Below, one piece after another: positions 6,712 through 20,083 of a stretch of 41,039 nucleotides of DNA. Below the pieces are notes generated by a model. The model ran no database searches, had not been told where the DNA came from, and saw only the letters and a list, made by a program, of their open reading frames with translations. Position numbers and translations under genes: made by a program. The stretch's first letter is position 1; each line of letters begins with the position of its first letter. The stretch is taken from assembly GCA_023700255.1 (NCBI GenBank), contig JAJPRD010000011.1:1-41039 (forward strand), given 5' to 3'. Source of the DNA: Candidatus Thalassarchaeaceae archaeon (GTDB lineage: Archaea > Thermoplasmatota > Poseidoniia > Poseidoniales > Thalassarchaeaceae).

Positions 6712-7977
6712 ATGGTTGTATCTGAGTCGGGGCTAAGGCGAGTGACGAATACTCGTTTAATCGATCATGATGGCAAAGTTAACTTTGGTAATTTTTTACT
6801 ACATGACGATGGAACTTATTCGCTTAGCAATGGTGATGAGGATGTTATTGAAACCATAGATGGTTCAATGCGCTTAATTACTCGCTCATTCCAAAATTGG
6901 CACACACATCTAGCCATGGTTCTTAATCGCGGAATGGGTGAAGGTTTACCGTTAATGGAGTGGTTAGAAACCTCTATATTTCCTGTAGAAAAATTCCTCA
7001 CGCCAGAGTTTGTTGCAATAGGTACTCGTGCAGCAGCAGCAGAATTAATTTCAACAGGTACAACATTTGCTTGTGATATGTACTTTCATACTGAAGTAAT
7101 AGGAGATACTCTTGCTGAAACTGGGCTCCGAGCTGAATTATGTGGACCAATAACCGATGGGCTCACACCTAATTTCAAAACAGGATCTGGTGATGCTTTG
7201 AGGCATATGGAATCTCTAATCAAGAATGGCTCTTCACGCCCAGATAGAATCTCATATGGCATAGGTGCCCATTCAGTTTATGTTTGTAGCGAAGAAACTC
7301 TGAGAAAAGCGTCGGAAGTTTCTAAAAAAACAAATTGTAAACTTAGTATTCATACCTCAGAAACTCGTAAAGAAGTCGCTGATTGCCATGCGGCAACAGG
7401 AATGTATCCAATCGAGTATCTTGATTCATTAGATTTTTTTTCAGATGGTAACACCGTATGCGCTCATTGTGGTTGGGTTACAAAAAAAGAAATGAGGATA
7501 TTGGCCGGACATGATGTTCATGCTGTCCATTGTCCAACTTCTAATCAGAAACTTGCCTGCGGTGGAACACTTTCGTATCCGGCTATGAGAAATGCAGGTG
7601 TTGATGTCAGATTAGGTACAGATGGAGCGGCAAGTAACAATAGTCTTGATATGCGTGCAGAATCTAAAGCTGCAAGTTTAGTCCAAAGACACGATCATTG
7701 GGATGCAAAAATCCTCAATCCAATTGAAACATGGAAATTAGCTACTAAAGATTCCAAAGATTGGATAACTTGGGATCTTGATGATATTCGAATGCGTCCA
7801 TTTGGTAAAAATAGCCGTAGAATACTTGCTAACGTAATATATTCCGGTGGAAGGGTACTAGACGTTCTAGTTTCTGGTGAACCTCTACGCCGTAACGGGA
7901 ACACTCTGACAATAGATGAGAGTCTTGTAGGCCAAGATATTGAAGAAGCAGTCGTAGACTACTATGCTGGAATCTAA
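6712..7977 (+). CDS. Amidohydrolase, MTA/SAH deaminase-like
   Basis: 421-residue metal-dependent deaminase of the amidohydrolase superfamily. Metal and catalytic residues of the MtaD/guanine-deaminase group are all in place: HxH at 64 and 66, H187 in GAHSVY, H214 and E217 in SIHTSE, H252 in CAHCGW and D304 in LGTDGAASNN. Known relatives deaminate 5'-methylthioadenosine, S-adenosylhomocysteine or adenosine in the cytoplasm, feeding inosine-type products to purine and methionine salvage. The ATG at 6712 is preceded by GGGAGAATC. The last 24 codons are duplicated downstream of the first cold-shock gene (see 8288-8358). Confidence 0.88.
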   Translation: MVVSESGLRRVTNTRLIDHDGKVNFGNFLLHDDGTYSLSNGDEDVIETIDGSMRLITRSFQNWHTHLAMVLNRGMGEGLPLMEWLETSIFPVEKFLTPEFVAIGTRAAAAELISTGTTFACDMYFHTEVIGDTLAETGLRAELCGPITDGLTPNFKTGSGDALRHMESLIKNGSSRPDRISYGIGAHSVYVCSEETLRKASEVSKKTNCKLSIHTSETRKEVADCHAATGMYPIEYLDSLDFFSDGNTVCAHCGWVTKKEMRILAGHDVHAVHCPTSNQKLACGGTLSYPAMRNAGVDVRLGTDGAASNNSLDMRAESKAASLVQRHDHWDAKILNPIETWKLATKDSKDWITWDLDDIRMRPFGKNSRRILANVIYSGGRVLDVLVSGEPLRRNGNTLTIDESLVGQDIEEAVVDYYAGI

Positions 7978-8232
7978 ATAATTAGATCGAGTTTTCACTC
8001 TGATTTTTTGACGTTAATAGCATTAGGGCCTTTAGGACCTTCACCGACTTCGAACTCAACTGAGTCGCCATCTGCGATGACGCCTTCCACTTGAGTATGA
8101 TGGCAGAATAAATCCTCTCCATCCTCTTGTTCGATGAATCCGAACCCTTTTTGCTGATTAAACCACTTGACTGTACCTTGAGGCATATTCTCCCTCGCGA
8201 TGCCCATACTACTTCAACTGATTTGATGAACG
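7907..8232. repeat. Tandem duplication copy 1 (amidohydrolase 3' end plus csp gene)
   Basis: About 326 bases covering the last 24 codons of the amidohydrolase, the short intergenic spacer, the whole cold-shock gene and about 45 bases upstream of it. The same block recurs at 8288-8613 with a 381-base offset that stays constant until a single-base insertion just upstream of the second csp start. The 55 bases between the copies (8233-8287) are unique. Confidence 0.93.
7995..8186 (-). CDS. Cold-shock protein, CspA family (copy 1)
   Basis: 63-residue OB-fold nucleic-acid chaperone. RNP1-like KGFGFIEQ and RNP2-like DLFCHHTQV are intact, with the typical MPQGTVKWFN start. The upstream in-frame ATG at 8207 is not used: the matching ATG of copy 2 is out of frame because of a one-base difference. 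A strong ribosome site (GAGGGAG) precedes the ATG. Coding sequence differs from copy 2 at three bases only, two of which change the protein (Gln/Lys after FNQ, Pro/Ala at residue 2). CspA-type proteins are found in Marine Group II and a few haloarchaea but not in most archaea. Confidence 0.95.
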   Translation of the reverse strand: MPQGTVKWFNQQKGFGFIEQEDGEDLFCHHTQVEGVIADGDSVEFEVGEGPKGPNAINVKKSE

Positions 8233-8287: not shown

Positions 8288-8358
8288 TGACAATAGATGA
8301 GAGTTGTTCAGGCTAAGCAATTGAGGAAGCAGTCGTAGACTACTATGCTGAAATCTAA
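8288..8358 (+). pseudogene. Relic of the amidohydrolase 3' end
   Basis: A decayed copy of the last 24 codons of the gene ending at 7977. It aligns without gaps at 381-base offset. Several substitutions have accumulated, and one turns a Gln codon (CAA) into an in-frame TAA, while the final EEAVVDYYA segment is still readable. It has no upstream gene body and cannot be functional as protein. Confidence 0.93.
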
Positions 8359-8375
8359 ATAGTTAGATCGAGTTT

Positions 8376-8567
8376 TCACTCTGATTTTTTGACGTTAATA
8401 GCATTAGGGCCTTTAGGACCTTCACCGACTTCGAACTCAACTGAGTCGCCATCTGCGATGACGCCTTCCACTTGAGTATGATGGCAGAATAAATCCTCTC
8501 CATCCTCTTGTTCGATGAATCCGAACCCTTTTTTCTGATTAAACCACTTGACTGTTCCTTGAGCCAT
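8376..8567 (-). CDS. Cold-shock protein, CspA family (copy 2)
   Basis: 63-residue paralogue of the protein at 7995-8186, starting MAQGTVKWFNQKKGFGF. RNP1 and RNP2 segments are unchanged. The ribosome site seen in copy 1 (GAGGGAG) is altered to GAGTAAAG here, so the copies may be translated at different levels. It lies 54 bases after the PrxQ gene on the same strand and could receive read-through from the photolyase operon. Confidence 0.95.
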   Translation of the reverse strand: MAQGTVKWFNQKKGFGFIEQEDGEDLFCHHTQVEGVIADGDSVEFEVGEGPKGPNAINVKKSE

Positions 8568-8621
8568 ATTCTTTACTCGCAATGACCATACTACTTCAAT
8601 TGATTTGATGAAAAGTACTTA

Positions 8622-16847: not shown

Positions 16848-17234
16848 ATGAATTTACACCTAGAAGATAATTTGTGGCACCCTATAATCAAAATTAGTAA
16901 GCTTAAAGACGGCCAGAAAAAGATGCGCCGGATAGGTCTCCGAAGCATTATGATAGTTCGAGAAGATTCTCAAGTTTTTGCAACTGACGCTCTTTGTAGG
17001 CACATGGCGTGGCCTTTGGCTTACGGTGGTAAAGTGAAGGATGATTGTATAACATGTCCACTTCATCAATCTAAATATGATCTAAAAAATGGTGAGGTGA
17101 AGGAATGGTCACCATTCCCTCTTTTACCTATTTATGGACGACTTTTAGGCTCTCTAAGGAAGCCGAGCCCTCTCGTCGTCCATGAGACGAGAGAGTTCGA
17201 CGGTTGGATCGAAGTCCGATTATCTACGGCGTGA
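16848..17234 (+). CDS. Rieske [2Fe-2S] domain protein
   Basis: 128-residue stand-alone Rieske ferredoxin-like domain. The cluster ligands are C50/H52 (CRHM) and C70/H73 (CPLH), 17 residues apart as in oxygenase-type Rieske proteins; there is no N-terminal membrane anchor, signal peptide or oxygenase catalytic domain. It probably passes electrons to a partner, plausibly an enzyme of the UbiB-SDR group. A hairpin-forming inverted repeat CTCTCGTC...GACGAGAG lies in its coding sequence at 17170-17193. The 3' half has been duplicated downstream (17381-17596). Confidence 0.9.
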   Translation: MNLHLEDNLWHPIIKISKLKDGQKKMRRIGLRSIMIVREDSQVFATDALCRHMAWPLAYGGKVKDDCITCPLHQSKYDLKNGEVKEWSPFPLLPIYGRLLGSLRKPSPLVVHETREFDGWIEVRLSTA

Positions 17235-17245
17235 GCTAGAACCAG
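17012..17245. repeat. Tandem duplication copy 1 (Rieske 3' half plus fasciclin-gene tail)
   Basis: The block starts inside the intact Rieske gene and runs past its stop. The last dozen bases beyond the stop, read on the minus strand, resemble the final codons of the fasciclin gene (TCTCTGG, a 5-base insertion, then CTCACGCCGTAGATAA), so the ancestral unit spanned both 3' ends. Copy 2 is at 17381-17596, 369 bases away at the start and 356 at the end owing to net deletion in copy 2. Confidence 0.88.
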
Positions 17246-17380
17246 AGAGTTTTACTTCAATGAAAGAACTGCTGAGAGTCTGCGACTAGGTTCTTCAGAG
17301 GTCTTAAGAAGTAAATATTAAACTAACGAATTTGCTGGCTGGTTTTTACACTAAAAACTCTTTACATATTATTTAGCATA

Positions 17381-17585
17381 GCCTTTGGCTTGTGGTGGTA
17401 AAGTGAAGGGTGATTGTATAACATGCTCACTTGATCAATCTAATCAGATCAAAAAATTGAGAGATGAAGGAATGGTGAACAATCTCACTTAATGGACGAT
17501 TTTTAGGCTCCCTAAGGAGGCCGAGCCCTCTCATCGTCCATGAGACGAGAGAGCTCGACGTTTGGGTCAGTCCGATTATCTACGG
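17381..17585 (+). pseudogene. Decayed partial copy of the Rieske gene
   Basis: Aligns with codons 55 to the end of the Rieske gene. Frameshifting indels and a change of the second cluster motif from CPLH to CSLD remove any function, and the N-terminal ligand pair is not included. The end of the block is also the end of the intact fasciclin gene read in the other direction. It fills most of the 341-base gap 17235-17575; the rest (17246-17380) shows no gene. Confidence 0.9.
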
Positions 17586-17596
17586 CGTGAGCCAGA
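17381..17596. repeat. Tandem duplication copy 2
   Basis: Second copy of the block at 17012-17245. Here the Rieske part is a relic and the fasciclin tail is the working copy. The inverted repeat of copy 1 persists at 17528-17551 with one mismatch. Confidence 0.88.
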
Positions 17597-19933
17597 GACA
17601 ACCAATGCACCGATTAGTGCTATTGCAGCAATACCCGCTGTAAATCCAGGGGTATTGTCATCAGAGTCTACTACGGTAGTAGGTGTTTCACTGATACCAG
17701 TTCCAACAACTACTTGTCCATTCATTCCCGTTGTTGCATGGGGTTCACAGATGTAATAGAACGTTTCATCTTCGGTGAAGGTGAGACGATAATCAACAGT
17801 TGTTGCTGCTGTACCACTGTACTCTCCAGCAACATCTCTGGTAGTATCTCCCTCTTCTCTTACTTGTGCGACGTTGTGTGCCATAGTTGCATCATTCCAA
17901 ATCCAGCATACAGTTTGACCTACATCAATACTTAGATCAGTATTGTCGTAAGCCATTCCATTATCATTTAATCCGATTACGAAATCACATCCATCAGGGA
18001 TAACTGGCTCATCAGCTGGTGGCATTAGTACCATGTCGATGACATGGATAACACCGTTTGATGCCATAACATCAGCTGTAGTTACAGTAGCGTCTCCAAT
18101 CATTACAGTTCCATCTGTTACTGTGAATGAAGCATCATCTCCGTTAACCATTGCTACAGTTAATCCATCTGTTACATCAGCAGCATGTACTGCACCAGAG
18201 TAAACGTGGTAAAGTAAGATATCAGTTAGAGCAGCGATTTCTTCATCAGTTGTGAATGCATCCAAATCGATTCCAGCATCAGTGAATGCTTGGTCAGTTG
18301 GTGCGAATACTGTAAATGGTCCAGTTCCTTGTAATGTACTTACTAGGTCTGCCTTTACTAGAGCAGCAACAAGTGAGTCATGTACTCCAGTTGACATTGC
18401 AACTGCTGCAATATCTACAAGATCAGCTGGTGGCATTAGTACCTTGTCGATGACATGGATTACACCGTTTGATGCAGGCACATCAGCCAACACTACAGTA
18501 GCATCTCCAATCATTACAGTCCCATCTGTTACTGTGAATGAAGCATCATCTCCGTTAACCATTGCTACAGTTAATCCATCTGTTACACCAGCAGCATTGA
18601 CCGCTCCTGAGTAAACATGGTAAAGTAAGATATCTGTTAGAACAGCAATCTCTTCATCTGTATCAAATGTTGACAAATCGATTCCAGCATCAGCGAATGC
18701 TTGATCTGTTGGAGCGAACACTGTGAAAGGTCCGTCGCCTTGTAGTGTGCTAACTAAATTGGATACTGATAGCGCACCTACTAGAGAATTGTGTATTCCT
18801 GTCGACATTGCAGTTGTTGCAATATCTACTGGTGGTGTCCACATGTATGATTCACAAATTGCTTGTGTAGTGTCTGTGAGTGCGTGAGATACTGTATTGT
18901 AGCATCCAGTAAATTCTTCTCCACCCATGCTGTAATTTTCTACGTACATGTATGCGCCACATTCTTCCATTGATGCTCCTGCAGCAATGGTATGTGTTGC
19001 GGAATTGTAGCAAATACCGATTCCGGTGTATGGAGCCGGTGGCATTAGTACCTTGTCGATGACATGGATGACACCGTTTGATGCCATTACATCAGCTGCA
19101 GTTACTGTAGCATCCTCAATCATTACAGTTCCTTCTGTTACTGTGAATTGAGCATAGTCTCCATTAACCATTTGTACTGCTAGACCATCTGTTACACCAG
19201 CTGCATATACTGCACCAGAGTAAACATGGTAAAGTAAGATGTCAGTTAGAGCAGCGATTTCTTCATCAGTTGTGAATGCATCCAAATCGATTCCAGCATC
19301 AGTGAATGCTTGATCTGTTGGAGCGAACACTGTGTACGGTCCAACGCCTTGCATTGTACTTACTAAGTCAGCCTTTACTAGAGCAGCAACAAGTGAGTCG
19401 TGTACTCCTGTTGACATTGCAACTGCTGCAATGTCTACTAAGTCAGCTGGTGGCATTAGTACCATGTCGATGACATGGATAACACCGTTTGATGCCATAA
19501 CATCAGCTGTAGTTACAGTAGCGTCTCCAATCATTACAGTTCCATCTGTTACTGTGAATGAAGCATCATCTCCGTTAGCCATGGCTACAGTTAATCCATC
19601 TGTTACATCAGCTGCATAGACTGCACCTGCTGTGTAAACATGGTAAAGTAAGATATCTGTTAGAACAGCAATCTCTTCATCTGTGTCAAATGTTGACAAA
19701 TCGATTCCAGCATCAGCGAATGCTTGATCTGTTGGAGCGAATACAGTGAAAGGTCCATTTCCTTGTAGTGTACTTACTAAGTCAGCTTGTACAAGAGCAT
19801 CAACTAATGTATCATGTACACCAGTATTTGTCGCATTTGTGGGTATGTCATCATTTGAATCTGCCATAGCAATTGGCATAGTCATTAGACAGGCAGTCAT
19901 TATTAAGGCAATACATGCTTTTCTCTTATGCAT
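17576..19933 (-). CDS. Secreted four-fasciclin plus cupredoxin protein with PGF-CTERM anchor
   Basis: 785 residues from the ATG at 19933 (GGAG seven bases upstream; a GTG two codons earlier is less well placed). Signal peptide ends near AMA-DS (about residue 24). Four fasciclin (FAS1) domains lie at about 35-161, 166-300, 370-500 and 505-639, each with GPFTVFAPTDQAF and LLYHVY. The 300-368 linker has two short repeats starting CYN..., ending C..YM (Cys 308, 325, 344, 360). A plastocyanin-like domain (about 648-745) has Cu ligands H686, C729, H732 and M737. The tail PGF-hydrophobic helix-RRR (762-785) is an archaeosortase A sorting signal. Predicted role: cell-surface adhesion with a copper electron-transfer site. 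Confidence 0.92.
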   Translation of the reverse strand: MHKRKACIALIMTACLMTMPIAMADSNDDIPTNATNTGVHDTLVDALVQADLVSTLQGNGPFTVFAPTDQAFADAGIDLSTFDTDEEIAVLTDILLYHVYTAGAVYAADVTDGLTVAMANGDDASFTVTDGTVMIGDATVTTADVMASNGVIHVIDMVLMPPADLVDIAAVAMSTGVHDSLVAALVKADLVSTMQGVGPYTVFAPTDQAFTDAGIDLDAFTTDEEIAALTDILLYHVYSGAVYAAGVTDGLAVQMVNGDYAQFTVTEGTVMIEDATVTAADVMASNGVIHVIDKVLMPPAPYTGIGICYNSATHTIAAGASMEECGAYMYVENYSMGGEEFTGCYNTVSHALTDTTQAICESYMWTPPVDIATTAMSTGIHNSLVGALSVSNLVSTLQGDGPFTVFAPTDQAFADAGIDLSTFDTDEEIAVLTDILLYHVYSGAVNAAGVTDGLTVAMVNGDDASFTVTDGTVMIGDATVVLADVPASNGVIHVIDKVLMPPADLVDIAAVAMSTGVHDSLVAALVKADLVSTLQGTGPFTVFAPTDQAFTDAGIDLDAFTTDEEIAALTDILLYHVYSGAVHAADVTDGLTVAMVNGDDASFTVTDGTVMIGDATVTTADVMASNGVIHVIDMVLMPPADEPVIPDGCDFVIGLNDNGMAYDNTDLSIDVGQTVCWIWNDATMAHNVAQVREEGDTTRDVAGEYSGTAATTVDYRLTFTEDETFYYICEPHATTGMNGQVVVGTGISETPTTVVDSDDNTPGFTAGIAAIALIGALVVSGSRRR
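18012..18146. repeat. Exact 135-base repeat within the fasciclin gene (in FAS1 domain 4)
   Basis: Identical over 135 bases to 19443-19577, which encodes the same part of FAS1 domain 1. The flanking codons differ. Such identity in domains otherwise separated by many substitutions points to recent gene conversion or unequal exchange. Confidence 0.95.
19443..19577. repeat. Exact 135-base repeat within the fasciclin gene (in FAS1 domain 1)
   Basis: Partner of 18012-18146. Other pairs (for example 18185-18300 with 19210-19325) are nearly identical and relate the N-terminal halves of domains 2 and 4. Confidence 0.95.
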
Positions 19934-20083
19934 GTTCACGCTCCGACATATTTACCCTATTTAATAGATGTATTTTCTGCGAATACATTTTTCTAATTAG
20001 TAGCTTAATGTTTGTTTTATTTTCTTAAAAAATAGATAATTTCAAGAAAAGAATTTCGAAAAATCAATAGAAATAAAAAACGC

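Follow-up and report, generated by a model that had tools for sequence, protein, structure and literature searches.

Duplication of an overlapping Rieske/fasciclin gene junction in a marine Group II archaeon and the apparent parting of protein-coding and RNA-folding constraints

Convergent overlaps are common in compact archaeal genomes, and the constraint on such an overlap is rarely visible. The locus described here, in which the junction between a Rieske gene and a fasciclin gene is present twice, raises the question of what becomes of the DNA shared by two convergent genes once each of them has a copy of its own. The constraint is visible in this case as an RNA helix covarying inside the codons of the other gene, and one lineage shows a duplication that appears to have lifted the conflict.

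The duplicated junction

The DNA under study derives from a marine Group II archaeon (Poseidoniales, Thalassarchaeaceae) with a draft genome of 1.43 Mb in 63 contigs, and the window, that is, the whole stretch of 41,039 nucleotides analysed, is contig C29. Two intact genes are convergent neighbours within this window. The Rieske [2Fe-2S] gene (128 amino acids; 16848-17234, plus strand) was identified as an open reading frame with a match to Pfam PF00355 (E 3.5e-17), and the opposite gene (787 amino acids; 17576-19939, minus strand) as an open reading frame encoding four fasciclin domains plus one of plastocyanin type (Pfam PF02469 and PF00127). The name fas is used here for this fasciclin/plastocyanin gene. 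Halocyanin and plastocyanin genes as a general class, fas not being singled out, are reported to be among the highly transcribed genes of Thalassarchaeaceae (PMC9723583). The four FAS1 repeats of fas (18011-19825), each about 411 bp in length, share a mutual identity of 80-90%, which suggests turnover or conversion inside the gene.

A block of about 234 bp including both gene ends is present as two homologous copies, close together and in the same orientation, as in a local direct duplication. Copy 1 (17007-17240, plus strand) lies within the intact Rieske gene, and copy 2 (17376-17596, plus strand) is a Rieske relic running into the end of fas. The alignment of 17012-17240 (229 bases) with 17381-17596 (216 bases) gave a score of 273, against a maximum of 29 for 300 shuffled sequences, and its start was pushed by eye to 17007 and 17376. 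Comparison of the two copies by blastn gave an E value of 2e-62 with 83.4% identity over 229 columns. The start-to-start distance of the copies drops from 369 to 356 bases because of deletions in copy 2. The Rieske frame of copy 2 contains in-frame stops and frame-shifting deletions, indicating that it is a relic. The stop and last codons of fas were found in both copies; by direct reading of the sequence, the fas relic within copy 1 consists of six codons and the stop (21 bp; 17220-17240, minus strand). The initial annotation of this locus had proposed a decayed repeat of the Rieske 3' half, located 356-369 bases downstream, and the inclusion of the last fas codons in the duplicated block, and the significant alignment of the two blocks bears out both proposals.

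The same annotation described the event as a tandem duplication that left an intact Rieske end and a relic fasciclin tail in copy 1. The adjacent copies in the same orientation and the intact Rieske gene agree with this description; the fas relic, however, is limited to the 21 bp noted above, and the event differs from a plain tandem duplication. In a plain tandem copy no extra sequence stands between the units, and the 135-bp spacer (17241-17375; 33% GC) would consist of fas sequence, none of which is recognizable there. A profile built from nine fas tails detected nothing in the spacer at E<=100, while it recognized the true tail at 6e-48, and a decayed fas tail was rejected as the origin of the spacer. 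No significant match to the spacer was found elsewhere in the same genome or among 39 relatives. The absence of detectable fas homology in the spacer indicates that the duplication was not of the plain tandem type.

The ancestral overlap and a stem-loop on the fas strand

In all eight congeneric species checked, the Rieske and fas genes overlap tail to tail by 15 bp, with the fas stop located inside the Rieske end, in agreement with the direct overlap of about 15 bases that had been predicted for the ancestor and for relatives. The ancestral locus was accordingly a convergent overlapping gene pair. The arrangement in the sister group ranges from a 4-nt overlap to a 1-nt gap. Nine derived bases are common to both copies of the window and missing from all eight relatives, indicating that the duplication arose within the lineage of the window species.

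Across the eight congeners, a stretch of about 150 bp across the two gene ends is 96-98% identical, compared with mostly about 75-90% for the rest of the locus. The GC content of this junction element is 47-67%, against roughly 35% upstream, and synonymous variation was observed for 3 of 25 codons in the block versus 45 of 57 codons upstream. Based on the conservation profile of the congeners, the GC-rich copy of the element next to fas, which covers the fas 3' end and 3' flank, was mapped at 17506-17655 on the minus strand, with an element match at 17506-17610. Open frames are present in the block, but a convincing start for a third overlapping reading frame was not seen.

The minus strand of the junction folds better than shuffled sequences (z -4.9) and contains a stem-loop of 16 bp starting 17-32 nt past the fas stop. 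For 16 species loci (8 congeners and 8 sister-group loci), all 240 pair cells of this helix hold standard pairs, and 7 of the 16 pairs are changed on both sides. When the partner was slid by one to three columns as a control, pairing was 37-55%. Compensatory changes at this level, with complete pairing, indicate a conserved structured RNA. On the plus strand, pairing is limited to 82.9% of the cells, as the G-U pairs of the minus strand turn into A-C. A plus-strand RNA as the folded form is therefore ruled out, indicating that the folded form is the fas-sense RNA, encoded antisense within the Rieske coding DNA.

When 148 genomes of the family were searched with the covariance model, strong matches were confined to g1 and g6, the Rieske/fas clades. 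The search against Rfam gave no match at the gathering score, with only weak unrelated matches below it, and the tRNA scan detected nothing. In the window, both copies were matched by the covariance model: the stem-loop of copy 2 (17520-17559, minus strand), 3' of fas, has all 16 pairs intact, while that of copy 1 (17162-17201, minus strand) has 15 of 16 pairs, with one A-C break. In Thalassarchaeum, the stem-loop probably belongs to a more extensive structured 3' end. In one sister-group genome, G092, two Rieske/fas hairpin loci were detected, on contigs C3 and C30, representing either a duplication or a strain mixture in the assembly.

Stem-loops downstream of fas in other genera and their possible role

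In other genera of the family, fas is located next to other neighbours. The first 100 nt past the fas stop fold strongly in g4, g9, g10 and g11, with mean z values of -5.2 to -8.3 (g10 being one genome), and the sequences of these stem-loops are unrelated. The hairpin signal is weak or absent in g3, g7 and g8. Among the fas 3' flanks of g4, g9 and g11 (L207-L242), the stem-loops are alike within a genus and different between genera. As judged from such sequence comparisons, the fas 3' element seems to have been replaced over time. As a control, the 3' flanks of 151 open reading frames of the same genome gave an average z of -0.40, which rules out 3' hairpins as a property of all genes; among 40 window genes, fas ranks first in 3' folding. 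The sole control beyond z -4.5 was the 3' flank of an open reading frame of 2664 residues (L184, 11333-11432; 14-bp stem, z -6.2), and strong 3' stems may mark a few genes in this genome.

In prokaryotes, stem-loops at the 3' end of mRNA protect the message or terminate its synthesis. The fas element is similar to these in that its stable stem lies no more than about 70 nt from the stop codon, but differs in that it is without a U-run, is encoded within another gene and is rebuilt from unrelated sequence in other genera. We infer that the hairpin is present on the fas transcript, the 3' end of which it would then protect or define. The uncultured marine Group II archaea thereby gain a concrete candidate for a 3' RNA element, on the gene for a plastocyanin-type surface protein.

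The stem-loop might instead be a transcription terminator, perhaps halting fas transcription before it proceeds far into Rieske, rather than a protector of the mRNA end. The position of the stem, 17-70 nt past the fas stop, is suitable for this role. In Haloferax, hairpins are linked to transcript ends and one hairpin tested within a coding region halted 59% of the transcripts, and archaeal terminators inside convergent coding regions are known (PMC7237163). Direct reading of the window and the congeners, however, revealed no U-run directly after the stem, indicating that this is not a standard intrinsic terminator. Moreover, fas stems are also present in genera in which the neighbour is different, so that shielding of Rieske is not the general reason for their presence. 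Taken together, we regard a terminator as possible but somewhat unlikely. For convergent archaeal gene pairs, a transcript ending inside the coding region of the other gene was observed for 52% of the pairs studied in Sulfolobus acidocaldarius and 8% in Methanosarcina mazei (PMC7237163). The Rieske/fas pair is alike in that the neighbours are convergent and the presumed 3' end of one falls within the other's coding sequence. It differs in that a base-paired element covaries through the codons of the other gene and has been duplicated in one lineage.

Fate of the two copies

The duplication in itself is unremarkable, and the interest of the locus is in the covarying antisense RNA element and its apparent separation from the protein code. 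Our preferred reading, to which we assign a probability of roughly two in three, is that a dual-use Rieske/fas segment was duplicated and that the constraints of protein code and RNA fold were separated between the copies. The 3' part of Rieske in this clade would be of dual use, its plus strand coding for the Rieske C-terminus and its minus strand forming the fas 3' flank, the fas-sense RNA of which would fold into a stem-loop of 16-18 bp. Duplication of the block with both gene ends, with the 135-bp filler in between, would have provided each gene with its own copy. The copy of Rieske would then be required only for protein coding and the fas-adjacent copy only for folding, and the constraints could part.

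The lineage-specific changes follow opposite patterns in the two copies. Outside the conserved block, 2 changes were counted for copy 1 and 17 events for copy 2 (141 sites for copy 2), whereas inside the block 5 changes were counted for copy 1 and 3 for copy 2 (93 sites for copy 2). The Fisher test gave p values of 0.011 for all changes, 0.009 for substitutions only and 0.028 after removal of the single copy 1 change that falls outside the Rieske frame, for counts that are small and for block limits set by the conservation among relatives, not by the copies. Copy 1 carries three amino-acid changes in a stretch almost invariant across the genus, together with the one broken stem pair. The sole stem change of copy 2 yields a G-U, and all of its pairs are maintained. 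With respect to the wider structure, the single changes in the two copies are consistent with the model, in numbers too small to serve as evidence. The loss of RNA constraint in copy 1 is only beginning, since 15 of the 16 pairs remain. The decay patterns are those expected if copy 1 only codes for protein and copy 2 only folds, and a functional split is likely on this basis.

In subfunctionalisation, duplicate copies divide the original functions between them. The Rieske/fas junction is alike in that a segment with two jobs was duplicated, one job apparently being retained by each copy, but the jobs differ in kind, being a protein code and an RNA fold on opposite strands, and the unit is a fragment of 234 bp, not a whole gene. 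In its widest form, the locus would represent a natural experiment, in which a protein end and a functional RNA fold on opposite strands were duplicated, the functions parted and each copy is losing the constraint that it does not need, the 3' RNA trait recurring with unrelated sequence in other genera. We consider this wider reading to be on balance probable.

Part of these observations would also follow from a plain neutral duplication, with the copies merely decaying and no division of labour. A duplication with its ends in two neighbouring genes always leaves both genes with one complete copy, the Rieske-only part of copy 2 is clearly decayed, and copy 1 retains nearly all of its stem pairs. 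Neutral decay is in poor agreement, however, with the low number of events inside the block of copy 2 relative to its outside and with the opposite trend in copy 1, and is judged to be improbable. An assembly artefact fusing two strain variants is a very remote explanation. The duplication is known from one draft genome only (81% complete, 3.8% contaminated), but copy 2 consists of a broken piece of Rieske instead of an intact allele, none of the relatives searched has the spacer, and the copies share the nine derived bases and yet differ in their patterns of change. The reading of the palindrome as a by-product of the Rieske peptide or as a double-stranded DNA site is largely excluded. The peptide is conserved, and about 10 of 16 pairs arise when its codons are replaced at random by synonyms, but at most 0.12% of such trials reach 16 pairs, Rieske genes without a neighbouring fas show no helix (4-12 pairs at the corresponding position, as a contrast of one clade against others and not of many independent events), and wobble pairs are tolerated on one strand only, as for RNA rather than DNA.

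The idea that this genome is generally prone to tandem duplication where convergent genes meet was rejected, as some 248 kb sampled outside the window contained no further clear case. Within the window, another direct duplication (7907-8230 and 8288-8612; 94% identical) is located across a convergent junction; it takes in the end of an amidohydrolase gene and a small minus-strand gene for a cold-shock-like protein, the latter being present twice. A direct repeat of 117 bp (88%) was also found between two codirectional genes, at 1122-1238 and 1271-1387 of L188.
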